A stretch of DNA of 64,000 bases, taken from Rhodothermales bacterium. GTDB lineage: Bacteria; Bacteroidota; Rhodothermia; Rhodothermales; UBA10348. Shown here in pieces: positions 1,470-14,421 of the stretch. Location: the NCBI GenBank assembly GCA_017643395.1, contig JAEPNP010000001.1, forward strand, positions 517,806 to 581,805, written 5' to 3'. Numbering within the stretch: position 1 is the stretch's first letter; each line of letters starts with the position of its first letter. Both the position numbers and the translations under genes were made by a program. The notes beneath the pieces were generated by a model. That model did not search any database and was not told the DNA's origin. It worked only from the letters and a program-made list of their open reading frames with translations.

Positions 1470-1885
1470 GAGCCCGAGGGACCCAAAAAAATCCCGGTTT
1501 GCGGGATTGTGTTGCGATTTGTCTGAAAGGCGGGTAACGGACTCGATTCTGGCCTAAAAACGCGGGTTGTGTCCGATCTGGAGCAACTCCGCGGCGTGAT
1601 TCCGACGGCCCGCGACCGGCCTGTGTGACCGGTTTGTCGCATCTCCGGCCTTGACACATTTCGGACGCCCGCCCCCCTATTAGGAGTCCGCAAATCCTCA
1701 CGACGGCCCCGTAATCCACATCTGGTTGCGAGAAATCGCTGCCCGGGCCGGATCCACGGAGGTTGCGCTCCGCCGACCCGCACATCACACACCCCGGCGT
1801 CCGCTGAACACATAACCGGCTGTGCTCCCCTCCGGATGAGCGCGGCCCGAATCCGCATCACAGCATGTTGGAGGACAGCTACGCC
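1470..1885. other. Intergenic region upstream of the giant DUF11 gene
   Basis: These 416 bases contain no convincing gene. They hold the hairpin at 1490-1508, a TTGACA at 1651-1656 (with TATTAG 21 bp further on, too far for a normal sigma-70 pair), and a GGAGGA ribosome binding site at 1870-1875 that selects the ATG at 1886. The length suggests a long 5' leader or a regulated promoter. I see no clear promoter by eye. Confidence 0.4.
1490..1508 (-). terminator. Hairpin with U-tract on the minus strand
   Basis: A perfect 7-bp stem (AATCCCG / CGGGATT, 5-nt loop) lies 20 bp after the SUMF1-fold gene. It is flanked on its left by a run of seven A, so the U-tract of a classical intrinsic terminator is on the minus strand. 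On the plus strand only scattered T follow. It may still end the plus-strand transcript weakly. Confidence 0.4.
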
Positions 1886-4800
1886 ATGTATACCTCTAAC
1901 CCGATCAAGACGCGTTCGCGCGCATCGATCGCCGATTTCACGGCCTGGGCGCTCTTCGCCCTGCTGCTCCTTGCCGTCGCCCTTCCGGCCGCGGCCCAGA
2001 CCTCCGGAAAGGTGGACCTGGAGCTGAGCAAGGTCGTCGACAAACAGTTCGCCGCCGTCGGTGAGGACGTTGTGTACACCATCACGGTGAGCAACAAGCC
2101 CGCGCACGGCCAGGCCAACAAGGCCACGAACATCATTGTAAAGGACTACCTGCCACACGGCCTTACCGCGCTGCAGCACTCGGCCACGACGGGCGGCGAG
2201 CACGGGATCACCTTCAATCACAGCACGCTGACGTGGACGATTGAGTGGTTGAACGCAGGGCAGTCGGTAGATCTGCAGTTCAAGGCCCGCGTCAACCAGG
2301 TCGGCGAGTTCAAGAACTGCGCCGAGATCTGGGACGCCGACCAAAAGGACATCGACTCCAAGACGGGGGCGGAGGCCTATGCGGCCCTCGCCGGTTTGCA
2401 TTTGGGAGAAGACGATGAGGACTGCGCCGAATTCTGGGCGGTCAACACCGGCTCGATCTCGGGCATGGTGTTCGACGACGTTAACGGAGACGGTGTCTTC
2501 AACGCGCACGAGTCCGGTCTGCTTGGATTCGAAATCGATCTGAACGAAATCGGCAACGACCACACCTGCGGCACGCACGACGACAAGGAGGTCGCCTCGG
2601 TAGACTCCGACGCAGCAGGCAACTACGCGTTCTGGGATGTCATTCCCGGCACGTACTGCGTTGAAATCGACGACATCACGATTCCCCACGGCTTTCAGCG
2701 GACGACGGAGAATCCTGTTAAGGTCAAAGTAGGTGCAGGCGAAGACGTAACCGGGATCAAGTTTGGCTTCCAGAAGCCGCGCATCGATCTCGAACTCGAG
2801 AAGGTCGTCGACAACGAGCGTCCGACGGTTGGTGACAAGGTCACGTTCACGCTGACGCTTAAGAACAACGACGTGGATGCCCACGGCAAGAAGGTGGCAA
2901 CGGCCACTGCCACGGGAATCCAGGTTGCAGACTACCTCCCCCACGGTCTCACCTTCCACTCCGCCTCAAGCGGCTTTGGCATCACCTTCGATGAGTCCAA
3001 GACCAAGTGGACCATCGACCGCATGGAGCCCGGCAAGAGCGTATCGCTCGTACTGACCGCACTTGTGGTCAAGGACGGCGAGCTCACGAACTGCACCGAG
3101 GTCTGGGACGCGCACCAGAAGGACCGCGATTCCAAGACGGGCGACGAGGCCCACGGCGAACTCGTCGGCGGTCCCGATGCCGAGGACGACCAGGATTGCG
3201 CAAGCATCTGGGCGCAGCCGCGCACTATCGACCTCGAGCTCGAGAAAGTGGTCGACAACCCGTACCCGACCGTCGGCGACAAGGTGGAGTTTACCCTCAC
3301 CCTGAAGAACAACGACGAGTGGGGCACCGTGCGCACGGCCACGGCCACGGGCATTCAGGTGGTGGACTACCTCCCGCACGGCCTGTCCTTCCACAGTGCC
3401 TCCCCCAACGGCCACGGTGTGACGTTTGACTCCCACAAACTTACCTGGACCATTGACCAGCTCGAGGCCGGCAAGAGCATCTCGCTTTCGCTGATCGCGA
3501 CCGTCGACAAGGACGGCGAGTTCACGAACTGCGCCGAAGTCTGGGACGATAACGAAATCGATCGCGACTCGCAGACGGGCGCCGAAGCGCACGGCGAGCT
3601 CGTGGGCGGCCCGCATGCCGAGGACGACCAGGACTGTGCCAGCCTCTGGGCGCAGCCGCGCACGATCGACCTCGAACTGACCAAGGTGGTCGACAACCCC
3701 TATCCGACTGTCGGTGACAAGGTCACCTTCACGCTGACGCTGAAGAACAACGACCAGCACGGCACGGTGGAGACCGCCACGGCTACGGGCATCCAGGTGG
3801 CAGACTATCTGCCCCACGGCCTCTCGCTCCACACGGCAAATGTGCCGGCCGGCACGACGTTCGACAACAGCTCGCTCACGTGGCACGTCGACCAGTTGGC
3901 TGCGGGCAAGAGCCTCGCCGCGACGCTGGTTGTGACCGTGGACAAGGAAGGCGAGTTCGAGAACTGCGCCGAAGTCTGGGACGACAACGAGTTCGACCGT
4001 GACTCCAAGACCGGCGCCGAGGCCGGCGGCCAGCTCATCGGCAAGGAAGACGACCAGGACTGCGCCGCCCTCTGGGCGAGCCCTGCGCTCATCGACCTCG
4101 AGCTGACCAAGACGATGGACAAAACGAACCTGACCGTGGGCGACACGGCCGAGTTTACCATCACGGTCAAGAACAACGACCACGACGGATCGACCGCCAA
4201 GGCGACCAATGTCATGGTAGCTGATTACCTACCGCACGGCTTCTGGCTGGTGGAAGGTTCGAGCGACCACGCGCAAGCCAACGGCATCACCTTTGACGAC
4301 ACCAACGTCAAATGGACCATTGAATGGATCGCGCCGGGTCAGAGCGTTGTGCTCAAACTGAAGGCGCGCGCCGAGAAGGCTGGCGAGTTCACGAACTGCG
4401 CCGAAGTCTGGGACGCAGACCAGAAGGATCGCGACTCCCAGACGGGCGATGTCGCCGGTGGTGTCCTGATCGGTGACGAAGATGACCAGGACTGCGTCGA
4501 GTTCTGGGTGGCCGACAGGCCGCTCATCGACCTGGAGCTGGACAAGTCCATCGACAATGCCAATCCCAAAGTGGGCGACATCGTCACCTTCACCCTCAAC
4601 GTCACCAACAACGACAAGGAGCACCACCAGACCGTGCCGACAGCGAAGGCGACCAACGTCATCGTCAAGGACTACCTCCCGGCCGGCCTGTGGGTGATTG
4701 ACGGCGGAAGCGCCCACGCCTCGAACGGCATCACTTTTGACAAGCATGCCGCTACGTGGTACATCGAGTGGATTGCTCCCGGCCAGACGGTGACACTGAC

Positions 4801-6661
4801 GCTCAAGGCCCGCGTAGACCAGAAAGGCGAGTTCAAGAACTGCGCCGAGGTCTGGGATGCGGATCAGAAGGACCGCGACTCGAAGACGGGCGATGAGGCC
4901 GGCGGCCAGCTCGTGGGCAATGAGGACGACGACGACTGCGTCGACTACTGGGTGGGTCAGACCACTCCCCCGGTCGGCAAGGGCTCCGTCACCGGTGTTG
5001 TCTTCAACGACCTGAACTACAACGGCGTGCTGGATCACGGCGAGCCGGGTCTGAGCGGATTCGAGGTAGACCTCACCGACCTCGGCAAGGACTACGTCTG
5101 CGGAGGCGGCGACGACAAGGAGCTGGCCACTGACGACACCGACCACCAGGGCAAGTACGCCTTCTGGGACGTCGACGCCGGTACCTACTGCGTGCGCATC
5201 CTGGACATCGCGATCCCGCACGGATTCACCCGTACCTCGCCCGATCCGGTGAAGGTGGTTGTGACCAAAGGCGGCAACGCCGTCGTCAACTTCGGCTTCA
5301 AGTCGGGTCACGTGACGCCTCCGCCTCCGCCGCCGAGCGGCGACACGTTGTGCTACCTCGTGGCCGACAATGACGGAAAGGGCCATGGCAGCGCGGATGT
5401 GCTCACCCGCCTTACGCAAGGTGCGTATCAGGACGAGGTGATCGGTGGCACGCATACGGAGCTCATCGAGGCCGTCGCCTACAACCCATGGAACAAGCAG
5501 CTCTACGCATCCAACGCGCGCTCCCTCGGCACGCTTGACCGGTACACCGGCAAGTTCACCGAGATCGGTGAGTTCGGAGGCGGCGAAGGCGAAGACGGAT
5601 GGCTGGCGTTCCTGGACGTCGATGGCCTCACCTTCGATCCCTACTCCGGAGTGATGTTCGGTTCGGTTCGCCGCACCGGTCTGCGCGATCTGCTGATCCA
5701 GATCGATCCGAAGACCGGCAAAGCAATCACGAACGCGTTCGGTCACGGCATCGACTACCTGGTGATCAAGCCGGAGAGCGGCCACTACTACGGTCCCGAG
5801 CTCGACGACATCGACGACCTCGCCGTGGACCCGGAGACCAAGAAGCTCTTTGCGATCAACAACCACGACGGCATGCACAGCCGCCTCGTAGTGATCGACC
5901 CGCACACGGGCTGGATCCAGAAGGTGCTTGATCTGCCGATCGAGAACGTGGAAGGTCTGGCTTTCTTCAACAACGGCACGCTCTACGGCACGGCCGGTGA
6001 AGGCACCGAGGCGATCGTGGAGATCGACAAGCACAGCCTGCAGGTCAAGGTGCACGCTTCGATCGGCGTAAACGGCAACCGCGACTACGAGTCCATCGAC
6101 TGCCTCACGGCAGAGCCGTCCTACCTCTCCGTTGCCGTAACGAGCGGCACCGAGGTGGAGCTCTACCGCGACATGGATATCGACGGTACGGTATCTGCGA
6201 ACGACCTCCTTGTAGCTACCACCACCGCGGAGAACGGTCAGGCCACCTTCGCCGTGGCGGCAACAGGAGCGTTTGTGATGCAGGCCACCGACGCGGGCTC
6301 GGCCATGATCGCCGCCGCTTCGGTTGACGGCTACGGGCTGAGTATCACCGCAGATGGCGCCTTCGGTACCTCTACCGAGGCCTCTTCGGAGCTGCCGAGC
6401 GGCTTCGGTCTCGCCGGCAACTACCCGAACCCCTTCAACCCGCAGACCACGGTGTCCTTCCGGATGCCGGAGTCCGGTCAGGTTCGCCTCTCGGTGCACG
6501 ACGTGCTCGGACGCGAGATGGCCGTCCTGGTCGACGGTGTAGTGGGTGCCGGTTCGCACGAAGTCACCTTCGAGGCCGGCGATCTGCCGAGCGGCACCTA
6601 TATGGCCCGCCTGGCCGGAGCCCTCGGCGTGCAGACGAAAACCATGGTCCTCCTCAAGTAG
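1886..6661 (+). CDS. Giant secreted DUF11-repeat surface protein with sorting tail
   Basis: The protein has 1591 residues. ATG 1886 is chosen over the ATG 21 bp upstream because GGAGGA sits 10 bp before it. Order of parts: signal peptide ending ALPAAAQ (~1-38); DUF11-type Ig-like repeat 1 (~43); SdrD-B-like module (~189, VFDDVNGDGVFN); DUF11 repeats 2-6 starting near 300, 448, 594, 736 and 881; second SdrD-B-like module (~1032); poly-Pro linker; propeller-like domain (~1152-1410); a short SdrD-like strand module; then a FlgD-like type IX sorting domain with YPNPFNPQTTVSF (~1512-1591). Each repeat ends in an acidic segment bracketed by two Cys (NCAEVWD...DDQDC). Family knowledge suggests a cell-surface stalk or adhesin exported by Sec and then T9SS. 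Ligand unknown. Confidence 0.85.
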   Translation: MYTSNPIKTRSRASIADFTAWALFALLLLAVALPAAAQTSGKVDLELSKVVDKQFAAVGEDVVYTITVSNKPAHGQANKATNIIVKDYLPHGLTALQHSATTGGEHGITFNHSTLTWTIEWLNAGQSVDLQFKARVNQVGEFKNCAEIWDADQKDIDSKTGAEAYAALAGLHLGEDDEDCAEFWAVNTGSISGMVFDDVNGDGVFNAHESGLLGFEIDLNEIGNDHTCGTHDDKEVASVDSDAAGNYAFWDVIPGTYCVEIDDITIPHGFQRTTENPVKVKVGAGEDVTGIKFGFQKPRIDLELEKVVDNERPTVGDKVTFTLTLKNNDVDAHGKKVATATATGIQVADYLPHGLTFHSASSGFGITFDESKTKWTIDRMEPGKSVSLVLTALVVKDGELTNCTEVWDAHQKDRDSKTGDEAHGELVGGPDAEDDQDCASIWAQPRTIDLELEKVVDNPYPTVGDKVEFTLTLKNNDEWGTVRTATATGIQVVDYLPHGLSFHSASPNGHGVTFDSHKLTWTIDQLEAGKSISLSLIATVDKDGEFTNCAEVWDDNEIDRDSQTGAEAHGELVGGPHAEDDQDCASLWAQPRTIDLELTKVVDNPYPTVGDKVTFTLTLKNNDQHGTVETATATGIQVADYLPHGLSLHTANVPAGTTFDNSSLTWHVDQLAAGKSLAATLVVTVDKEGEFENCAEVWDDNEFDRDSKTGAEAGGQLIGKEDDQDCAALWASPALIDLELTKTMDKTNLTVGDTAEFTITVKNNDHDGSTAKATNVMVADYLPHGFWLVEGSSDHAQANGITFDDTNVKWTIEWIAPGQSVVLKLKARAEKAGEFTNCAEVWDADQKDRDSQTGDVAGGVLIGDEDDQDCVEFWVADRPLIDLELDKSIDNANPKVGDIVTFTLNVTNNDKEHHQTVPTAKATNVIVKDYLPAGLWVIDGGSAHASNGITFDKHAATWYIEWIAPGQTVTLTLKARVDQKGEFKNCAEVWDADQKDRDSKTGDEAGGQLVGNEDDDDCVDYWVGQTTPPVGKGSVTGVVFNDLNYNGVLDHGEPGLSGFEVDLTDLGKDYVCGGGDDKELATDDTDHQGKYAFWDVDAGTYCVRILDIAIPHGFTRTSPDPVKVVVTKGGNAVVNFGFKSGHVTPPPPPPSGDTLCYLVADNDGKGHGSADVLTRLTQGAYQDEVIGGTHTELIEAVAYNPWNKQLYASNARSLGTLDRYTGKFTEIGEFGGGEGEDGWLAFLDVDGLTFDPYSGVMFGSVRRTGLRDLLIQIDPKTGKAITNAFGHGIDYLVIKPESGHYYGPELDDIDDLAVDPETKKLFAINNHDGMHSRLVVIDPHTGWIQKVLDLPIENVEGLAFFNNGTLYGTAGEGTEAIVEIDKHSLQVKVHASIGVNGNRDYESIDCLTAEPSYLSVAVTSGTEVELYRDMDIDGTVSANDLLVATTTAENGQATFAVAATGAFVMQATDAGSAMIAAASVDGYGLSITADGAFGTSTEASSELPSGFGLAGNYPNPFNPQTTVSFRMPESGQVRLSVHDVLGREMAVLVDGVVGAGSHEVTFEAGDLPSGTYMARLAGALGVQTKTMVLLK
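2783..4970 (+). repeat. Tandem intragenic repeats encoding DUF11 modules
   Basis: Five consecutive units of about 426-445 bp start near 2783, 3227, 3665, 4091 and 4526. Neighbouring units keep long near-identical DNA stretches, for example around 3250-3290 and 3690-3730 where differences are mostly third-codon changes. The period is a multiple of three and the reading frame is kept. These are coding repeats made by duplication, not spacer-repeat arrays. Confidence 0.85.
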
Positions 6662-6669
6662 CGGGACAG

Positions 6670-6700
6670 GCGGGTTCCGGGTCGGCGGCCCGGAACCCGC
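6670..6700 (+). terminator. Strong GC hairpin after the first DUF11 gene
   Basis: A perfect 12-bp stem (GCGGGTTCCGGG / CCCGGAACCCGC, 7-nt loop) begins 9 bp after the stop codon. No T-run follows, so it may act as a 3' stabiliser or attenuator rather than a full intrinsic terminator. Further small GC hairpins follow in the 6701-6858 spacer. Confidence 0.5.
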
Positions 6701-6858
6701 GTCCACGCGCCGGACCCCTCGGGTCCGCCGCAACGCCACAGCGCGGCAAGCCGGGCGACACACAGGCCCGGCCGCCGCGCGTTCGCGGCCGCCGTCCGGA
6801 AACGGGTTCTGCACCCAACCCGGCGGCCACTCACCTCCCGCTTACAACAGACACACGT

Positions 6859-9800
6859 ATGCGTACCCCCTTCCTCAAGACGCTTCGATCAGGCCTTGCC
6901 TCCCTGGCGGCTGCCGCGCTGCTGGCGGCCCCGGCGACGGCAGCGACGGCTGGCGCCGACAACGCCGGTGCCGACCTGAGCATTACCAAGACCGTGTCCA
7001 ATGCGTCGCCGGCCATCGGCGAGCGCATTGAGTTTACGGTCACGCTCACGAACTCCGGCGAAGCCAGCAACCTGGTGAAGGTGCTGGACCAGTTCAATGA
7101 CGGCGCCGGTTGCGTGGAGACGATCGGCCAGCCGCAGTTTTCGCACGGCAACTGGATCGGTACGCCCGACGAAGGCTTCCGCTGGACGGGCACCATGGCG
7201 GCGGGCCAGACCATGACGGCCACCCAGGCTGCCAGGGTCACCTGCGTCACGCAGTTCTCCAACAAGGCATCGGTCATCAGCTCCGGAAGCAATCCGGACT
7301 CCGACACGGTGGGTCACGAGGCAGAAGTCTGGGTCTGGCCGGTCCCTTCCACGGACGTGGAGGTCGTGAAGACCGTCTCTCACACGGACCCGGTCGTCGG
7401 ACAACGCATGTCTTTCCACCTTACGGTGACCAACCACGGGCCCGCCGTCCAGGGCATCGTGATTCGTGACGTGCTGGCTGACCCCAGCGGCTGTTTCCAG
7501 CGCATCAACCAGCCGGAAGTCTCACGCGGGTACGCACAGGTGGGTGACTTCAAGACGACCACCTGGGTGTTGGATCTCGGTGCCGGGGAGTCGGCAACCT
7601 TCCGGCAGTTCGGCTGGGTGGCGTGTGCCACCACGTTCACGAACGAAGCCACCGTGGAAAGCGGCGGCTCGCTCCCGGATCTGACACCGGCCAACAATCG
7701 CAGCATGGTCATCGTGCGCCCCTCCCAGGGCAAGACCATCGACCTGGAAGTGATCAAGGTCGTCGACAACTCCTACCCGCTGGAAGGAGACATCGTTACG
7801 TTCACGATCACGCTCTCGAACAATACCGAGTCCGAGGACGGTCGCACGTTCCCGACCAACGTCGCCCGCGACATCCAGGTCAAGGACTACCTGCCTCATG
7901 GGCTGACCCTGGTCGACCACTCGGTGCAGCTCGGTACGTTTGACGAGTCCACGACCACCTGGCATCTCGAAGAACTCAACCCGGGCAAGGCAACCAGTCT
8001 CTCCATCCGGGCTCGGGTGGAGGCCGAGGGTGAATACACCAACTGCGCGGAAGTCTGGGACGCGGACATGAAGGACCGCGATTCCACCACCGGTGAGGAA
8101 GCCGGTGGACCTCTTGCGGGAGCGAAGCGGCAGGATGATGAGGACTGTGTCTCCCTCTGGGCCGGCCCCCTCCTGGTTGATCTCGAAGTCCAGAAGGTGG
8201 TCGACAACGACCGCCCGATCCAGGGTGACATCATCACCTACTCGGTGACGGTGCGCAACCGCGCGGTGGAGCAGGGACGCGACATCCCGACGGCCGACGC
8301 AACCAACATCACCATCGCCGACTACCTGCAGCCCGGTCAGCACTATGTCGACGGGTCGGCTACGGTGGGAGGCCCCAACGGCATCACCTTCAACCCCCAC
8401 AACACCTCCTGGCACATCGAGAGCCTGCGCGCAGGCAAGGCACTTACCCTGGTCTTCCAGGCCGAGATGGTCAATGCCGGAGAGTACTCCAACTGCGCCG
8501 AGGTCCACGCAGCGGATCCGCGCGACCGCGACTCCCGAACAGCAGTGGAGGCCGGCGGTCCGTTGGCTTACGGCCACGAGTCGGAAGATGATCAGGACTG
8601 CGTCACCGTCTGGGTAACGCCCCGCCGTCCGGACCTGGAGCTGGTGAAGCATGTCTCGAACGAGAACCCTCGCGTGGGCGACTATGTGACGTACTCGATC
8701 ACGGTCACGAACCGCATGTTCGAGCAGGGTGTCGAGATTCCGACTGCCAGCGCGACCAACGTCGTCATCAAGGACTACTTCTCGAACCGACTCTGGTTTG
8801 AGGACGGCTCCGCCACGGATTCTTCCGTGCCCGGGCAGCCCGGTGGCATCACGTTCGACCAGAGTGCATTCACCTGGACCATCGACGAGATTCGTCCCGG
8901 CAAGTCGGTGACAGTTTCGTTCCGCGCCCGTGTGGATGACGACGGCGAGATCCGCAATTGCGCCGAGGTTTGGGATGCCGATCAGGGCGATCGCGACTCG
9001 CGCTCCGGTGCCGAAGCCTACGGCAAACTCGTGGGCGGCCCCGACGCCGAGGACGATCAGGACTGCGTTTCCATCTTCGTAGACCAGCTGCCCGAGCCCA
9101 AGGGCTCCGTTTCAGCCTTCGTCTTCCTCGATGCGGATGTGGACGGCGTCTTCAACCACTACGATACCGGCCTGGGCGGCTTCGAGGTGGATCTCACCAC
9201 GATTGGTGAAGACCGCACCTGCGGCACCTTCGATGACGTGGAGGTTGCTTCACTCGACTCCGACAAGAGCGGCAACGTGACGTTCTGGGATGTGGAGACC
9301 GGCGAGTACTGCCTGCGCATTCTCGACATCACCGTCCCGGCCGGCTACTTCCGCACGACGGCTGCCCGCGTGCCCGTCTGGGTGTCCCGTGGCGCCCATG
9401 TCACCGGCATTGAGTTCGGCTTCCGGGAGTCCTATCCCTCCTATCCCCAGGCCCCCTCGGACGATCCGCTCTGCTACCTGACCGGAAATCGTGAGGTGTC
9501 GACCTTCGCGCCCGGTGCGCTGTCCGATGTGCGGCTTGCCGGCCTTTCCGATGATGTGGCAGCCGTGGCGTACAGCCCGTGGTCCGAGACGCTGTTTGCC
9601 ACGGACGGCGAGGCCCTCGGCACTGTGGATGCCCTCACCGGTGCCTTCCAGCGCCTGGGTTACATCGGGTCAGGCGAAGGCGAGGTCGGCCCCCAGCGCT
9701 TCGAAAGCGTCACCGGATTGACGTTCGATCCCTTCCAGGGACGCCTGTTCGGCATTGTGGCCCGGGAGGACGCGGCGGATCTGGTCATCGAAATCGATCC

Positions 9801-10938
9801 CGAAACGGGTACGGCAGTGCGCGGCGCTTTTGGGCCTCGCAACGACTACCTCCTGGTCGGTGGTGACCTTCCGCAGGTGGACGATATCGCGATCAACCCG
9901 GTCGACGGCGGTCTCTACGCCGTAGGTACGGCCGACGGCATGAGTGCCCGCATGGCGCGCATCGACCGCACATTCGGCACGGTAAACGAGGTCCGCGACC
10001 TGGGCACCGCACGCCTGAACGGCCTCTCGTTCTTCAACAACGGTGAACTCTTTGCATCGACCGCTACCGACGTGCCGCTCCTGATCAACCTGGACATCGG
10101 CGTGGACATCTCGATCACCATCGAGGCTACGCTCGGCCAGGGCGCGTATGGCTCAGCCGGCAACGGCGTTGGATACACGGATCCGGGCGCACCGCAGGCA
10201 CCGGGCCACAACTCCGGGTACGACCCGGGTAGCGGCTCCGGCGGTTCGAACGGCGGCTCCGGCTACGGATCCGGCCTCGACTGCCTGACCGGCCGGGTCA
10301 ACGCATTGGGCACGATGCTCTTTGCCGACGACAACGGTGACGGCCAGTACCAGACCGGCGAGAGCGGCTTCGCAGGCGTGGGCGTGGACCTGTTCCGCGA
10401 CATCAATGCCAACGGTACCCTCGATCAGGGCGATGTGCTGGTTGCCCAGTCCCAGACGGGCGACGACGGCCAGGTGGTCTTTGAGACCGCAGCGAACGGC
10501 GACTTCCTCATGCAGGTCGTCTCCTCCACGCTGCCCTTCGGCGCGCACACCTCGGCCGCGGGCCCTGTGGCAGGCACCGTCGGAGGCTTCGGCCTCTCGG
10601 CCACCGATACCGGCGTGCCGGTAACCGGGGCCCTGTCCACCTCATCCGAGGACGAGCCCGTGAGTGAGCTGCCCGGCGAGTACGCATTGGACGGCAACTA
10701 TCCGAACCCGTTCAATCCCCAGACCACCGTCAGCTTCAAGCTGCCCGAGTCCGGTGACGTACGCCTGGCCGTGTACGACATCCTCGGCCGGGAAGTGGCG
10801 CTGTTGCACCAGGGCAGCCTGTCCGCAGGAACGCACGAAGTGACCTTCCGCGCCGATGCCATGCCGAGCGGCACGTACTTCGCCCGCATGGTCACCAAGG
10901 CCGGTGTATTCACCCGCTCCATGATCCTGATCAAGTAG
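6859..10938 (+). CDS. Second giant secreted DUF11-repeat surface protein with sorting tail
   Basis: The protein has 1359 residues and is a paralogue of the preceding gene. It has a signal peptide (MRTPFLKTLRSGLASLAAAA...), then five DUF11-type repeats starting near residues 38, 165, 294, 440 and 591. The first two are a different subtype with shorter, non-acidic ends; the last three carry the NCAEVWD...DDQDC acidic Cys segment. An SdrD-B-like module (~749), a propeller-like domain (~868-1115), a Gly/Ser-rich linker (~1119-1140), another SdrD-like module (~1149, FADDNGDGQYQTGE) and a YPNPFNPQTTVSF sorting domain (~1281-1359) follow. A long hairpin terminator lies just downstream. Probably a surface-anchored or released structural protein; binding partner unknown. 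No Shine-Dalgarno is seen at the start. Confidence 0.85.
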   Translation: MRTPFLKTLRSGLASLAAAALLAAPATAATAGADNAGADLSITKTVSNASPAIGERIEFTVTLTNSGEASNLVKVLDQFNDGAGCVETIGQPQFSHGNWIGTPDEGFRWTGTMAAGQTMTATQAARVTCVTQFSNKASVISSGSNPDSDTVGHEAEVWVWPVPSTDVEVVKTVSHTDPVVGQRMSFHLTVTNHGPAVQGIVIRDVLADPSGCFQRINQPEVSRGYAQVGDFKTTTWVLDLGAGESATFRQFGWVACATTFTNEATVESGGSLPDLTPANNRSMVIVRPSQGKTIDLEVIKVVDNSYPLEGDIVTFTITLSNNTESEDGRTFPTNVARDIQVKDYLPHGLTLVDHSVQLGTFDESTTTWHLEELNPGKATSLSIRARVEAEGEYTNCAEVWDADMKDRDSTTGEEAGGPLAGAKRQDDEDCVSLWAGPLLVDLEVQKVVDNDRPIQGDIITYSVTVRNRAVEQGRDIPTADATNITIADYLQPGQHYVDGSATVGGPNGITFNPHNTSWHIESLRAGKALTLVFQAEMVNAGEYSNCAEVHAADPRDRDSRTAVEAGGPLAYGHESEDDQDCVTVWVTPRRPDLELVKHVSNENPRVGDYVTYSITVTNRMFEQGVEIPTASATNVVIKDYFSNRLWFEDGSATDSSVPGQPGGITFDQSAFTWTIDEIRPGKSVTVSFRARVDDDGEIRNCAEVWDADQGDRDSRSGAEAYGKLVGGPDAEDDQDCVSIFVDQLPEPKGSVSAFVFLDADVDGVFNHYDTGLGGFEVDLTTIGEDRTCGTFDDVEVASLDSDKSGNVTFWDVETGEYCLRILDITVPAGYFRTTAARVPVWVSRGAHVTGIEFGFRESYPSYPQAPSDDPLCYLTGNREVSTFAPGALSDVRLAGLSDDVAAVAYSPWSETLFATDGEALGTVDALTGAFQRLGYIGSGEGEVGPQRFESVTGLTFDPFQGRLFGIVAREDAADLVIEIDPETGTAVRGAFGPRNDYLLVGGDLPQVDDIAINPVDGGLYAVGTADGMSARMARIDRTFGTVNEVRDLGTARLNGLSFFNNGELFASTATDVPLLINLDIGVDISITIEATLGQGAYGSAGNGVGYTDPGAPQAPGHNSGYDPGSGSGGSNGGSGYGSGLDCLTGRVNALGTMLFADDNGDGQYQTGESGFAGVGVDLFRDINANGTLDQGDVLVAQSQTGDDGQVVFETAANGDFLMQVVSSTLPFGAHTSAAGPVAGTVGGFGLSATDTGVPVTGALSTSSEDEPVSELPGEYALDGNYPNPFNPQTTVSFKLPESGDVRLAVYDILGREVALLHQGSLSAGTHEVTFRADAMPSGTYFARMVTKAGVFTRSMILIK

Positions 10939-10985
10939 ACGCCTCTCCCCGACGGCGACTCGGGGACGACAGAAGGCGTTCCCAC

Positions 10986-11031
10986 AACGGGGCCGGCTCT
11001 CCAACAGGGGAGTCGGCCCCGTTGCGTGTTT
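10986..11031 (+). terminator. Intrinsic-type terminator after the second DUF11 gene
   Basis: A 14-bp stem (10986-10999 with 11010-11023, one G-U pair, 10-nt loop) is followed by GCGTGTTT. This is the most convincing terminator-like structure in the window and separates the second DUF11 gene from the small paralogue that follows. Confidence 0.7.
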
Positions 11032-11113
11032 GCCCCCTCCAGCGGCCCCTGGCGGTTTAGTCGCCCCAATACCGGCCGATACCCGATGAGATTGATCTCT
11101 ATCGGAGCACGTC

Positions 11114-12238
11114 ATGTCTCGTCGATTCCTGGCCTTGTTGATTGTTTTTGCGCCTGCGTTTGCTGCCTCGGCGCAGACCGGCGGTGCGGAGGACTACTGT
11201 TTCCTTGTGGCCGACAACAACGGCGTGCGCTTTGACGCTGACGTGGTCACCCAGGTGGAAAAGGCCACAGGCCTGGAAACCGAGATCGGGATGACCGGCA
11301 CGCTGAACATCGAGGCCGTCGCGTTCCACCCGTTCGAACCCGGCATTTTCGCGGCCGACGGCGGCCTGCTGGGCACCATCAATGTCGAGACCGGCCGCTT
11401 CGCGCCCGTCGGCTGGCTGGGTACCGCCTACGGCGACGAAGGCCCGCTTTCTGCCGGTGACGTGGACGGCATGACGTTCGATCCGACGACCGGAGAGCTG
11501 TTCGGCGCGGTGCGCAAGTCTGCATTCGACTTCCTGGTGCAGATCGACCCCGCGAGCGGGCGGGTTGTCGAAGACGCCTTCGGAAGCGGCAAGGACTACG
11601 TGCGCGTCAGCTTTGGCTCCACAGACGTGCACGTGGACGACATCGCCATCAGCCCGACCACCGGCGACTTCGTTGCCGTGGTGACTGATGCTGCCGAGAA
11701 TTCGACTCTGGTCTCGATTGATCGGCAAACCGGCGTGGCCACCACCATCGCCCCGCTGGCCACCCAGGACCTGGAAGGACTCACGTTTGACCCCGCCGGC
11801 CGCCTGTTTGCCACACCCGGCGGCGACGGTCCGAACATGGTCGAAATCGACCTGGCGACCGGTAACGCCACCCCGTGGGCAGCGATCGGCGTCAACTCCA
11901 ACCGCGACTACGAGGCCGTTACGTGCATGGCGCACGGTGCCATGAGTTCTTCTTCGGAGTCGTCCGAGCTCCCGGGTGAAGTTGCCCTGCTGCCGGCCTA
12001 TCCGAACCCCTTCAATCCTACAACGACCTTCGGCTATACCCTGCCTGTGGGCAGTGACGTGCGGCTGAGCGTGTTCGACATGCTTGGGCGTGAGGTTGAA
12101 GTGCTCGAGAGCGGTTTCCGTGCAGCGGGCGCACATGAAGCACGATTCGACGCCTCCGGGCTACCGAGCGGCCTGTACATGTACCGCATCACGGGTCCCG
12201 GCTTTGTGCTCACACGGTCGGTTACGCTGCTGCGCTAG
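11114..12238 (+). CDS. Secreted propeller-like protein with type IX sorting tail
   Basis: The protein has 374 residues: a signal peptide (MSRRFLALLIVFAPAFAASA), a propeller-like region of about 260 residues, a Ser-rich linker (SSSSESSELPG), and a FlgD-like sorting domain with YPNPFNPTTTF at ~296. The middle region matches, motif by motif, the same domain in the two giant upstream proteins: CFLVADNNG versus CYLVADNDG, EAVAFHPF, GLTFDP, VNSNRDYEAV versus VNGNRDYESI. It is thus the same family without the DUF11 stalk. The repeats read like the strand pattern of NHL/WD-type propellers, but no catalytic residues stand out. Its own promoter is likely, since a terminator precedes it. Confidence 0.8.
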   Translation: MSRRFLALLIVFAPAFAASAQTGGAEDYCFLVADNNGVRFDADVVTQVEKATGLETEIGMTGTLNIEAVAFHPFEPGIFAADGGLLGTINVETGRFAPVGWLGTAYGDEGPLSAGDVDGMTFDPTTGELFGAVRKSAFDFLVQIDPASGRVVEDAFGSGKDYVRVSFGSTDVHVDDIAISPTTGDFVAVVTDAAENSTLVSIDRQTGVATTIAPLATQDLEGLTFDPAGRLFATPGGDGPNMVEIDLATGNATPWAAIGVNSNRDYEAVTCMAHGAMSSSSESSELPGEVALLPAYPNPFNPTTTFGYTLPVGSDVRLSVFDMLGREVEVLESGFRAAGAHEARFDASGLPSGLYMYRITGPGFVLTRSVTLLR

Positions 12239-12248
12239 CCGGGCCGCT

Positions 12249-13445
12249 TCACGCCGGCACCACCCAGCGCTCCTCACCGAACTTCGCCGCCCCCGTCGGG
12301 ATCGTCTCGGCCCCATCGGGCATGGCAATCTCCGGCAACGGCCTGGACGGGTCATCCTTGGGACGCGGATTGGGCTCGGCCCAGATCGTACCGCGCGTCG
12401 TGCGCATCACCACGTGATCGCCTGATCGGCCCAGTACCCAGGAGCGATTCAGCGGCACCTTGCCGTAGGGCGTGTCCAGCACGTACACCGGGATCGCAAA
12501 TCCGGTCAGCGTGCCCTGCAGCGACTCCATGAGCTCCATCCCGTGCTCGATGGACGTGCGCAGGTGACGTGTGCCGCCGATCAGCTGCGCCTGATAGAGG
12601 TAGTACGGCCTCACCCGCCTCGCCACCAGACCGGTCAGGAGGGCACGGAGCGCATCGCCCGAATCATTGATGCCACGCAGCAGCACGGTTTGATTGCCGA
12701 TGGGCACTCCGGCTCGCAGAAGGCGGTCAAGTGCGATGTCCGCCTCTGAGGACAACTCGCGCGCGTGGTTGAAATGAGTGTTCAGCCAGATGCGGTGCTC
12801 TCCCAGGATCCCGGCCAGATCCGCGGTGATGCGCTGAGGCAGCTTGACGGGCATGCGGCTGCCCACGCGAATCACGTGCACGTGCGGGACGGAGCGCACA
12901 GCTTCCAGGAGTTGTCGCACGCGACCATCGCTGAACGTGAGGGGATCGCCACCGGTCAGCAGCACGTCCCGGATTTCCGGGTGGGCGCGGATATAGGAAA
13001 CCGCATCGTCCAGCTCTGAGCGGCGCATCATGGCGTCCGCGTCACCCACCATGCGCTTGCGCAGGCAGTACCGGCAGTAGATCGCGCACTCGGACGTGAC
13101 GCAGAATGCCACACGATCCGGGTAGTTGTGGATCAGGTTCTTGACCGGGCTGTGGGCCACCTCCTCAAGCGGATCGACGACCCCCACCAGGTCCGGTTCA
13201 CATTCCTCGGCCAGGGGTACGACCTGGCGGCGAACCGGACACGCCGCGTCCTGAGGGTCCATCAGGGACGCGTAGTGCGGCGTGATATTCCATCGGAAGA
13301 TCCCGTCCGTCTCCCGGATTCCGTGCAGCTCCTGAGAAGTCGGCTCAATCCACTGCGACAGGGCGTCCGCACTGGAGACACGATGCCGCATGTGCCATCG
13401 CCAGTCGTCCCAGTCGGTTTGGGAGACGTGATCAGGTCGTGGCAT
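12249..13445 (-). CDS. kamA: KamA-family radical SAM aminomutase
   Basis: The protein has 398 residues. The ATG at 13445 overlaps the end of the upstream ATP-grasp gene by 14 nt; the longer open frame beyond it is that gene's shadow. The radical SAM cluster motif is C120-AIY-C124-RY-C127, followed by GGDPL, NTHFNH, VLLRGIND and PYYLYQAQLIGGTRHLRT, the order found in lysine 2,3-aminomutases (PLP plus [4Fe-4S]/SAM). The GIND and LDTPYGKVP segments keep Asp where lysine aminomutases bind the substrate's side-chain amine. However, QAQL replaces the usual QCDL, so the substrate may be lysine or another amino acid. The length fits free-amino-acid mutases better than the shorter EpmB. Confidence 0.8.
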   Translation of the reverse strand: MPRPDHVSQTDWDDWRWHMRHRVSSADALSQWIEPTSQELHGIRETDGIFRWNITPHYASLMDPQDAACPVRRQVVPLAEECEPDLVGVVDPLEEVAHSPVKNLIHNYPDRVAFCVTSECAIYCRYCLRKRMVGDADAMMRRSELDDAVSYIRAHPEIRDVLLTGGDPLTFSDGRVRQLLEAVRSVPHVHVIRVGSRMPVKLPQRITADLAGILGEHRIWLNTHFNHARELSSEADIALDRLLRAGVPIGNQTVLLRGINDSGDALRALLTGLVARRVRPYYLYQAQLIGGTRHLRTSIEHGMELMESLQGTLTGFAIPVYVLDTPYGKVPLNRSWVLGRSGDHVVMRTTRGTIWAEPNPRPKDDPSRPLPEIAMPDGAETIPTGAAKFGEERWVVPA

Positions 13446-14421
13446 GCTGCACGTAGTTCGGACCGGCCTCACGCATCGCGCGGTCCAGGGCCTGTTCGAG
13501 CACGCCCGCCAGCCAGACGGGATAGGACTGGCCCATGAGCTCGGCCAGCACGGCGAACGTGCCGTCCGGTGCGAAGGTGGGCAGAGGATTGATCTCCAAA
13601 AACCACGGTGTGCCGTTCGCGTCCACCCGGAAATCAACGCGCGCAAAGTCCCGGCATCCCAGAGCGCGAAACACCTGCAGCGACATGACCTGCATCTCTT
13701 CCTCCAGGTCCGGGTCAATGCTGCCTTCGAGGGTCCACCCCTCCACGCCGTGGCGCTCCAGGGCATGACTGCCGATTCCCGTGTCGGGGTCGACGGCCCG
13801 TTGCAGTTTTGGCAGGGCCTGCGGCGGACAGCCGACGACGGCCACGGTATACTCGCCCCCGCCCTGCACGAATGTCTCCACCAGTGCGTCCTGATCGTAG
13901 GTGGCGTGAATGTGGGCCACCTCCCGGGCGAGGGACCCTGCGTCAGAGACCACGCTTGACGGACGAATACCCTTGGCGGTGCCCTCAAAGCGCGGCTTGA
14001 CAAAGAGCGGATACGGACCTGGAGTCCGAGGCTCTTCGCCCGGTGCGACCGTGGTCCAGGCGGGAGTGCGCACACCGGCAATCTGCTTGGTGTAGACCTT
14101 GTCGAGGCTGATGGACAAGGCGAGCGCGTCCGAGCCCGTAAATGGTACTCCCCACATCTCAAGCAAGGTGGGCGCCCAGCCCTCCCGATTTCGGCTCCAG
14201 GCACCCTCGGCAATGTTGACCGCAGCGTCCACGTCGCGAGGTCCGTCCCGCAGCAAATCGCGCGGTGTGCCGAGCCGCAGCGGCTGATGGCCCAGCGCGC
14301 GCAGGGCCTCTTCGATGGCTTCTACCGTCTCCTCGGGCTCGTACTCGGCATCCGCATCCGGGGGGTCCCCCGGACGCCACGGCCAGGCGCTGTGCAGGTC
14401 GAAGACGATGCCGACGGTCAT
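13432..14421 (-). CDS. D-Ala-D-Ala-ligase-like ATP-grasp enzyme
   Basis: The protein has 329 residues. It shows the ATP-grasp order of the Ddl superfamily: NIAEGAWSRNREGW with LLEMWGVPFTGSDALAL, FVKPRFEGTAKGI (ATP-binding loop), and DFARVDFRVDANGTPWFLEINPLPT (Mg-binding acidic residues and Asn). The NIAEG variant and the missing HGxxGEDG of genuine peptidoglycan Ddl suggest a different carboxylate-amine ligase. It is not beside mur/fts genes but overlaps a KamA-type aminomutase, so the two may act in one pathway, for instance joining a beta-amino acid to another carboxylate. That pairing role is inference. It may simply be annotated as ddl. Confidence 0.75.
   Translation of the reverse strand: MTVGIVFDLHSAWPWRPGDPPDADAEYEPEETVEAIEEALRALGHQPLRLGTPRDLLRDGPRDVDAAVNIAEGAWSRNREGWAPTLLEMWGVPFTGSDALALSISLDKVYTKQIAGVRTPAWTTVAPGEEPRTPGPYPLFVKPRFEGTAKGIRPSSVVSDAGSLAREVAHIHATYDQDALVETFVQGGGEYTVAVVGCPPQALPKLQRAVDPDTGIGSHALERHGVEGWTLEGSIDPDLEEEMQVMSLQVFRALGCRDFARVDFRVDANGTPWFLEINPLPTFAPDGTFAVLAELMGQSYPVWLAGVLEQALDRAMREAGPNYVQHATT

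Follow-up and report, generated by a model that had tools for sequence, protein, structure and literature searches.

A recurrent propeller domain in predicted type IX-exported proteins of a Rhodothermales bacterium

Three neighbouring genes in the genome of a Rhodothermales bacterium (GenBank assembly GCA_017643395.1, contig JAEPNP010000001.1, positions 517,806 to 581,805) raise the question of where, and to what end, a single domain is carried on proteins of different length. The genes, here denoted A (1865..6661, 1598 amino acids (aa)), B (6859..10938, 1359 aa) and C (11114..12238, 374 aa), all lie on the + strand of this 64,000-nt stretch (hereafter, the window, to whose positions all coordinates refer unless a contig or locus is named), and their products share a domain of about 250 residues. 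The original prediction, made from the sequence, saw in these genes a locally duplicated, three-gene surface system in which the shared domain forms the head of a stalk and C could be a soluble competitor, cap or partner of the two larger proteins. The reading that we favour, with a probability of about 0.6, is that A, B and C reach the cell surface by type IX secretion, that each is built around a shared propeller with clasped ends, and that they belong to a fibrillar-adhesin-like family that has eight genes in this genome.

The common propeller domain

The propeller regions of A (5342..6118), B (9463..10299) and C (11189..11941) are homologous, with 38% identity over 252 aa between A and C (E 6e-50) and 35% over 237 aa between B and C (E 2e-33). 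Each protein starts with a signal-peptide-like N-terminus, recognized by eye, and ends with a type IX C-terminal tail that is located at 6422..6658 in A (with the motif YPNPFNP at residue 1520), at 10699..10923 in B and at 11999..12235 in C, where it is modelled as a six-stranded beta domain. The tails score 29.5, 37.3 and 38.8 bits, respectively, against TIGR04183, all above the NCBIfam cut-off of 23, and those of B and C (34.0 and 30.7 bits) also pass the cut-off of 27 for PF18962, the Pfam tail model. The presence of SprA (SprA_N, E 9e-87) and PorV (E 5e-40) in the same genome indicates that a type IX system is at hand. The common domain and tail proposed originally are thus borne out, and so is the distinction between two stalked proteins and a stalk-less one: in Pfam, A has six DUF11 stretches and B has five, each of the two also has two SdrD_B modules, and C has neither domain at E 0.01. 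All three gene products can accordingly be described as modular proteins with a common propeller that are predicted to be exported by the type IX route. The tail itself, however, was rejected as the feature that joins A, B and C: with 136 matches across the genome, 133 of them over the cut-off, it is commonplace and implies no special link among the three.

An AlphaFold2 model of C, based on 43 rows (mean predicted local distance difference test score (pLDDT) of 88.5 for the whole model, predicted template modelling score of 0.72), has strands spanning residues 28-272, with the beta tail separate. Sorted by hand, these strands form five four-stranded blades. Four of them begin at residues 66, 117, 173 and 220, respectively; the fifth combines a C-terminal inner strand (266-272) with three N-terminal ones (28-33, 44-49 and 55-60); under this assignment, the five blade sequences line up by eye. 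Structure models cover the propellers of B and C; in the model of B (pLDDT 81.6), four blades are clear and the closing blade, interrupted by a Gly/Ser-rich insert (10144..10263, pLDDT below 50), is poorly modelled. The best structural match of both models is the glutaminyl cyclase 3nol, which we take to be five-bladed: for C, Z is 16.9 with a root-mean-square deviation (rmsd) of 3.0 over 192 aligned residues, tied with 9ya3_K (Z 16.0), and for B, Z is 16.4 with an rmsd of 3.9 over 193 residues, tied with 2iwa (16.1) and 9ya3_K (15.8). Thus, the shared domain is modelled as a β-propeller, read as five-bladed, in which the last blade unites both ends of the chain. The alternative that the propeller regions differ in fold was rejected given the sequence homology among A, B and C and the agreement of the models of B and C, and the propeller-like fold that had been anticipated for these regions is retained. 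Sequence comparison with solved structures yielded no match below E 0.05 for the C propeller alone, and the top structure matches of the propeller profile are sums of many small WD40 repeats that show little; the Foldseek list has large rmsd values and served as background only.

Two features characterize this propeller. The first is a pair of Cys residues near the ends of the domain, Cys29 and Cys271 in C, which the hand reading of the model puts on adjacent strands of the closing blade. Among 65 aligned rows, 55 have both Cys, 10 have neither and none has a single one (52, 10 and 0, respectively, of the 62 rows that remain without three duplicates), counts that are to be read with the sampling in mind because one of the two search patterns contains the C-terminal Cys and favours copies having it, the extraction of part of the rows demanded Cys at both ends, and L061, with a Cys near the N-terminal place rather than at it, was scored as lacking. 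Since the two residues are kept or lost jointly in all copies, they probably form a disulfide clasp at the propeller ends. The second feature is an acidic residue at the equivalent spot of each inner strand (E67, D118, D175, E221 and E267 in C). Each of these five ring columns is 91-95% acidic across the 65 aligned copies, and the ring is complete in 56 rows, or in 53 of the 62 distinct copies. The nine incomplete rows comprise B and its orthologue in the congener genome G001, with one acid each, and seven others (g10c, g11b, g7b, g13a and three of L075), all of which come from multi-copy proteins. A metal ion is plausibly held by the complete ring. The alignment includes the row of the congener giant protein described below (g1_giant), which enters the counts as L050; the duplicates, L055, L049 and the second copy in L053, were taken out for the tree. 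L051 (a mirror copy of L050), L067 (which begins at a contig edge) and L082 (ragged hits) were excluded, and contig-edge fragments and unfetched copies make up the unused matches.

The stalks of A and B, in turn, carry candidate cross-links of their own. The DUF11 profile passes its cut-off in both proteins (A, 410 bits; B, 285 bits), and K10, D50 and N104 are invariant in all 11 repeats of the two proteins. In the first repeat as aligned, the Asp and the Asn lie 40 and 94 residues after the Lys, compared with 33 and 91 in the CLIPPER domain 9IFR, where excerpts of the source paper (PMC12617251) name Lys715, Asp748 and Asn806. A Cys pair in the context NC...DDxDC is present in nine of the 11 repeats and a different pair in the other two; according to the same excerpts, 29.7% of CLIPPER domains have disulfides in addition to isopeptide bonds (PMC12617251). 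Against solved structures, the DUF11 profile best matches the surface protein SPB1 (4uzg, E 0.0019), followed by 9ifr (E 0.015); the latter alignment is weak and ends before the Asn, with the Lys and one Asp matching, and it is only there that the two numberings are reconciled. A single DUF11 repeat had no match among the solved structures in phmmer at E 0.01. Taken together, the invariant residues point to Lys-Asn isopeptide bonds as predicted locks within the DUF11 repeats of A and B.

Distribution and history of the propeller genes

The notion of a three-gene family proved too narrow. A search of the source genome (G000) with C located ten copies of the domain, distributed over eight genes of contig C1, namely, A, B, C and the genes for proteins of 5694, 1957, 1599 (two copies of the domain), 2501 (two copies) and 1535 residues; six of the eight genes lie within approximately 42 kb on one strand. 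The open frame of the giant, at C1:492804-509888 (L040:805-17889), lies upstream of the window at a distance of about 8 kb; besides a single propeller and a type IX tail, its 5694 residues contain about 35 SdrD_B stretches (15 + 20) and some DUF11. The 1957-residue protein carries FG-GAP and DUF11 domains, and the 2501-residue open frame (C1:424819-432321) combines its two propellers with kelch (galactose-oxidase/kelch-like), PA14 and di-haem peroxidase (MauG-like) parts. The same propeller is also fused to a MauG-like di-haem peroxidase at L052:8063-11371; together with the 2501-residue frame, this fusion suggests that the module travels on enzyme-like cargo too. A 1573-residue frame of genome G010 (L044) has three tandem propellers after a phosphoesterase-like domain identified by eye.

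In relatives, the C propeller as a query matches 13 of 41 genomes (its own, both genomes of the same genus, eight of 22 from the same family and two of 16 from the same order). At the level of the phylum, a 25-row profile matches six of 296 genomes at E 1e-10, five of these being the source genome or members of its family. The named genomes hold 37 loci, which are spread over Rhodothermales, other Bacteroidota, Chloroflexi, Planctomycetes, Pseudomonadota, Desulfocapsa and others. In the congener G001, the giant, A, B and C are consecutive, with 71, 79, 82 and 70% identity, respectively, to their counterparts, the giant being cut by the contig end. The contig in question, C138 (JAJCYP010000138.1, 88456 bases), looks like a mirror image of itself: each of the four propeller matches in one half has an identically scoring counterpart on the opposite strand in the other, probably an assembly artefact.

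The propeller of A is most similar to that of the 1957-residue protein (59% identity), followed by those of the giant and one copy in the 1599-residue protein (51% each), and only then by those of C (39%) and B (37%). In the phylogenetic tree, A groups with the giant, the 1957-residue protein and their relatives (support 100/99), C and its orthologue are nearest to the L044 propellers of G010, which represents another genus (97/92), and the propeller of B is a lone long branch. The local duplication that was originally proposed is therefore left in the balance: the tree scatters A, B and C, but the approximately unbiased test rejects neither a clade of all three (p 0.225) nor one of A and C (p 0.252). 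Over most of their length, the two stalked proteins can be aligned with each other, with 39% identity between residues 308-1598 of A and 39-1359 of B. In the congener pair, the ratio of nonsynonymous to synonymous substitution rates (dN/dS) is about 0.11 for each propeller (0.098/0.859 for A, 0.12/1.044 for B and 0.187/1.733 for C), a rough value given that dS is near or above 1. These ratios suggest that all three propellers, that of B included, are maintained by purifying selection.

One simple transcript of all three genes is rendered somewhat less probable, although the argument is weak. It comes from a perfect 12-bp hairpin 3' of A (6670..6700) and a hairpin of 17 pairs, including at least one G-T pair, 3' of B (10986..11023), both without a T run; at the matching sites, the congener has a 15-bp hairpin followed by TTTTT and a 10-bp hairpin followed by CCTTTTT. 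A simple terminator scan, which performs at chance level (7 found, 7.0 expected), lists neither hairpin and places no terminator on the + strand in the A-B or B-C gap, and a simple promoter scan found none.

Position and possible role of the propeller

The propeller precedes the tail by 101 residues in A, 133 in B, 116 in the 1957-residue protein and 125 in the giant, by only 19 residues in C, and by 122 and 488 residues for the second and first copies, respectively, in the 2501-residue frame; the tail pattern used for these distances is a short motif that misses some tails, for example, that of L078, which was recognized by Pfam. The gap is constant or nearly so in the orthologues from G001 (101 in A, 133 in B, 20 in C and 125 in the giant). 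On the N-terminal side of the propeller, there are 1159 residues in A and 868 in B, and the N-termini of both proteins contain no other adhesion domain in Pfam at E 0.01. In type IX cargo, the C-terminal tail is the anchoring end, so that the propeller would be near the membrane, with the DUF11 arm pointing outward. Judging from this order of domains, the propeller of A, B, the giant and the 1957-residue protein would thus lie at the base rather than at the tip, and the head-on-stalk arrangement does not suit A and B; 'head' is a misnomer where the module adjoins the anchoring tail.

Under the reading that we favour, the tail would be cut and the proteins attached outside the outer membrane or released. 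The DUF11/SdrD_B arms of A and B, locked by Lys-Asn isopeptide bonds and disulfides, would project as stiff fibrils, with the propeller sitting at their base. The conserved ring and the analogy with olfactomedin suggest that the propeller may serve in binding, with a surface glycan or a protein partner as the probable target. C would be the same base module without the arm, and B a diverged copy; given that the ring of B is lost and its propeller is nevertheless under selection, B might bind something else or serve only as a structural base. A more far-reaching version, which we consider unlikely, concerns giant isopeptide-locked fibrils that Rhodothermales would export by the type IX route. 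Their basal module would be this unnamed propeller family, lined by one acid per blade and clasped by a disulfide in the blade where the two chain ends meet. C would be the bare base, and it would be the base, not the tip, that binds, for example, the cell's own surface glycan or sister fibrils, to yield one layered coat.

Several observations weigh against the favoured reading. The tail of A scores 24.8 bits, under the Pfam cut-off of 27. The YWTD, kelch, SAKe6 and Pizza6 propellers, presumably all six-bladed, reach Z 13-15 with the model of C, so that the blade count rests on the hand reading of the strands and on 3nol. On the tree, the joint loss of the two Cys comes down to three independent pairs; these all agree, with p 0.25 in a sign test, which is suggestive and not proof of the clasp. 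In the 1599- and 1535-residue proteins, the propeller is far from the tail (738-1234 residues), so that its basal placement is not general. Finally, the presence of the same propeller on enzyme-like proteins (the di-haem peroxidase-like L052 and the galactose-oxidase/kelch-like 2501-residue frame) implies that adhesion is not its only use.

Alternatively, the propeller may be a general-purpose module, such as a spacer, a folding cap before the tail or a substrate-targeting element, without a common ligand, and A, B and C no more than three among the lineage's numerous large exported proteins. This is a real, if clearly lesser, possibility, in line with the 133 over-cut-off tails in the genome, the occurrence of the propeller on peroxidase-like, kelch-like, VWA/cadherin-like and, by eye, phosphoesterase-like proteins, and its frequent location one SdrD-sized step ahead of the tail. 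The retention of all five ring acids in 53 of the 62 distinct copies across phyla, however, goes beyond what a spacer would seem to need, and copies are also found far from the tail and in Chloroflexi and Planctomycetes, groups that, to our knowledge, are not noted for type IX secretion. The arrangement originally envisaged, in which DUF11 stalks bear propeller heads at their tips and soluble C competes with A and B or caps them, is quite improbable. The common propeller, the adjacency of the genes and their neighbourhood in the congener as well are compatible with it; yet the propeller of A and B is close to the C-terminal tail, that of A is closer to those of the 1957-residue protein, the giant and one copy in the 1599-residue protein than to those of B and C, and hairpins follow A and B. 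Nothing favours the role of competitor, cap or partner for C, which bears the same type IX tail and hence has the same predicted fate as A and B. That the propeller acts as a glutaminyl-cyclase- or lactonase-type enzyme is very unlikely: a glutaminyl cyclase is the top structural match of both models, and each inner strand has one conserved acid at an equivalent place, but none of 25 copies matches any Pfam family besides DUF4394 and DUF6923 at E 0.001, L060, outside these 25, matches Phytase-like below the cut-off (21.2 of 27.6 bits), and a common propeller fold shows no function.

Many domains borne by isopeptide-locked DUF11 stalks have no known function, and the locus analysed here offers a compact one that can be tested: C is essentially the bare module, and it is accompanied by stalked paralogues and by B, a natural variant without the putative binding ring.

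Locus organization and comparison with known systems

Gene A starts at 1865; position 1886, used previously, is a second in-frame ATG. After the signal-peptide-like start, its product consists of DUF11 repeat 1 (2003..2449; Lys, Asp and Asn kept, with the Cys pair), a first SdrD_B-like module (2450..2764, with approximate bounds read from the sequence between repeats 1 and 2), DUF11 repeats 2 (2774..3199), 3 (3218..3649), 4 (3656..4069), 5 (4082..4510) and 6 (4517..4954), a second SdrD_B module (4991..5242, residues 1043-1126), the propeller, whose ends are marked by the Cys pair and which keeps five of five ring acids, an SdrD-like linker and the type IX tail. In B, the start is followed by DUF11 repeats 1 (6961..7338) and 2 (7342..7728), both with Lys, Asp and Asn kept and with the different Cys pair, repeats 3 (7729..8163), 4 (8167..8616) and 5 (8620..9078), a SpaA/SdrD-like module with a SpaA match in Pfam (9169..9387, residues 771-843), the divergent propeller, in which the Cys pair is kept, four of five ring acids are lost and the closing blade is weak, an SdrD_B module in the propeller-tail interval (10303..10524, residues 1149-1222) and the tail. 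The product of C comprises the start, the propeller, a 19-residue linker and the tail.

Immediately 5' of A, at 81-1469, the window encodes an FGE-sulfatase-like (SUMF1-like) protein, which is about 460 aa long and has a signal-peptide-like N-terminus; in G001, by comparison, there is no open frame of at least 250 aa in the interval between the giant and A. On the other side, lysine 2,3-aminomutase-like and ATP-grasp-like frames (12249-14421, - strand), named by eye, adjoin C, and a lysine-aminomutase-like frame is next to C in G001, too.

The propeller appears, from profile matches, to be a divergent relative of DUF4394 (PF14339) and DUF6923 (PF21959), which 18 and 14 of 25 propellers, respectively, match at E 0.001. 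When ten propellers were scanned singly, three relatives exceeded the DUF4394 cut-off (38.9, 36.2 and 32.0 of 29.6 bits) and one the DUF6923 cut-off (29.9 of 27); C falls below both (23.4 of 29.6 and 22.2 of 27 bits), and A and B match neither family. The best stretches cover part of the profile only, and both DUF4394 matches in the source genome are under the cut-off. A literature search retrieved no paper naming either family, and a search for beta-propellers with DUF11 retrieved only papers unrelated by title. NCBIfam gives weak matches only for the 25 propellers, among them ScyD/ScyE (NF033206), which two propellers match with a best E of 2e-5; at E 0.01, the remaining 23, among them C, give no match.

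Among propellers of known structure, one analogy is olfactomedin (OLF), which, according to excerpts of PMC4396693 and PMC6719662, is an extracellular five-bladed propeller that has a disulfide near the N-terminus, binds calcium at its centre in some members and, in latrophilin, mediates cell adhesion. The modelled fold and the Cys pair of the present propeller fit this pattern in general; in these excerpts, however, the disulfide of the latrophilin domain ties blade IV to the stretch that precedes strand 0 (PMC4396693, PMC6719662), whereas the Cys pair here is placed differently, and the propeller here has one acid per blade. Furthermore, OLF domains come from multicellular organisms, and the propellers analysed here are bacterial. 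None of the 25 propellers matches olfactomedin in Pfam at E 0.001, and its absence from the 50 structural matches listed for either model excludes nothing. The glutaminyl cyclases resemble the propeller in structure, 3nol being the top match for both models and 2iwa among those for B, but are enzymes, and no glutaminyl cyclase family match was found among the 25 propellers in Pfam at E 0.001.

The stalks have a closer counterpart in the fibrillar adhesins with CLIPPER domains (DUF11, PF01345), likewise long secreted proteins in which tandem DUF11 repeats carry Lys, Asp and Asn; such isopeptide-locked stalks of Gram-negative bacteria were structurally characterized only in 2025 (PMC12617251). 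According to the same excerpts, DUF11 co-occurs with Por_secre_tail sorting domains and disulfides, as it does here with type IX tails and candidate disulfides. The word propeller is absent from the main text of that paper (PMC12617251), whereas here a propeller accompanies the stalk near its anchoring end. In fibrillar adhesins generally, a long repeat stalk is combined with a sorting signal, as in A and B and unlike the stalk-less C, and the binding domain is expected away from the anchor, whereas the propeller of A and B is at the tail-near end. The overall design, a DUF11 stalk with a sorting tail, is thus already known and does not amount to a new system.

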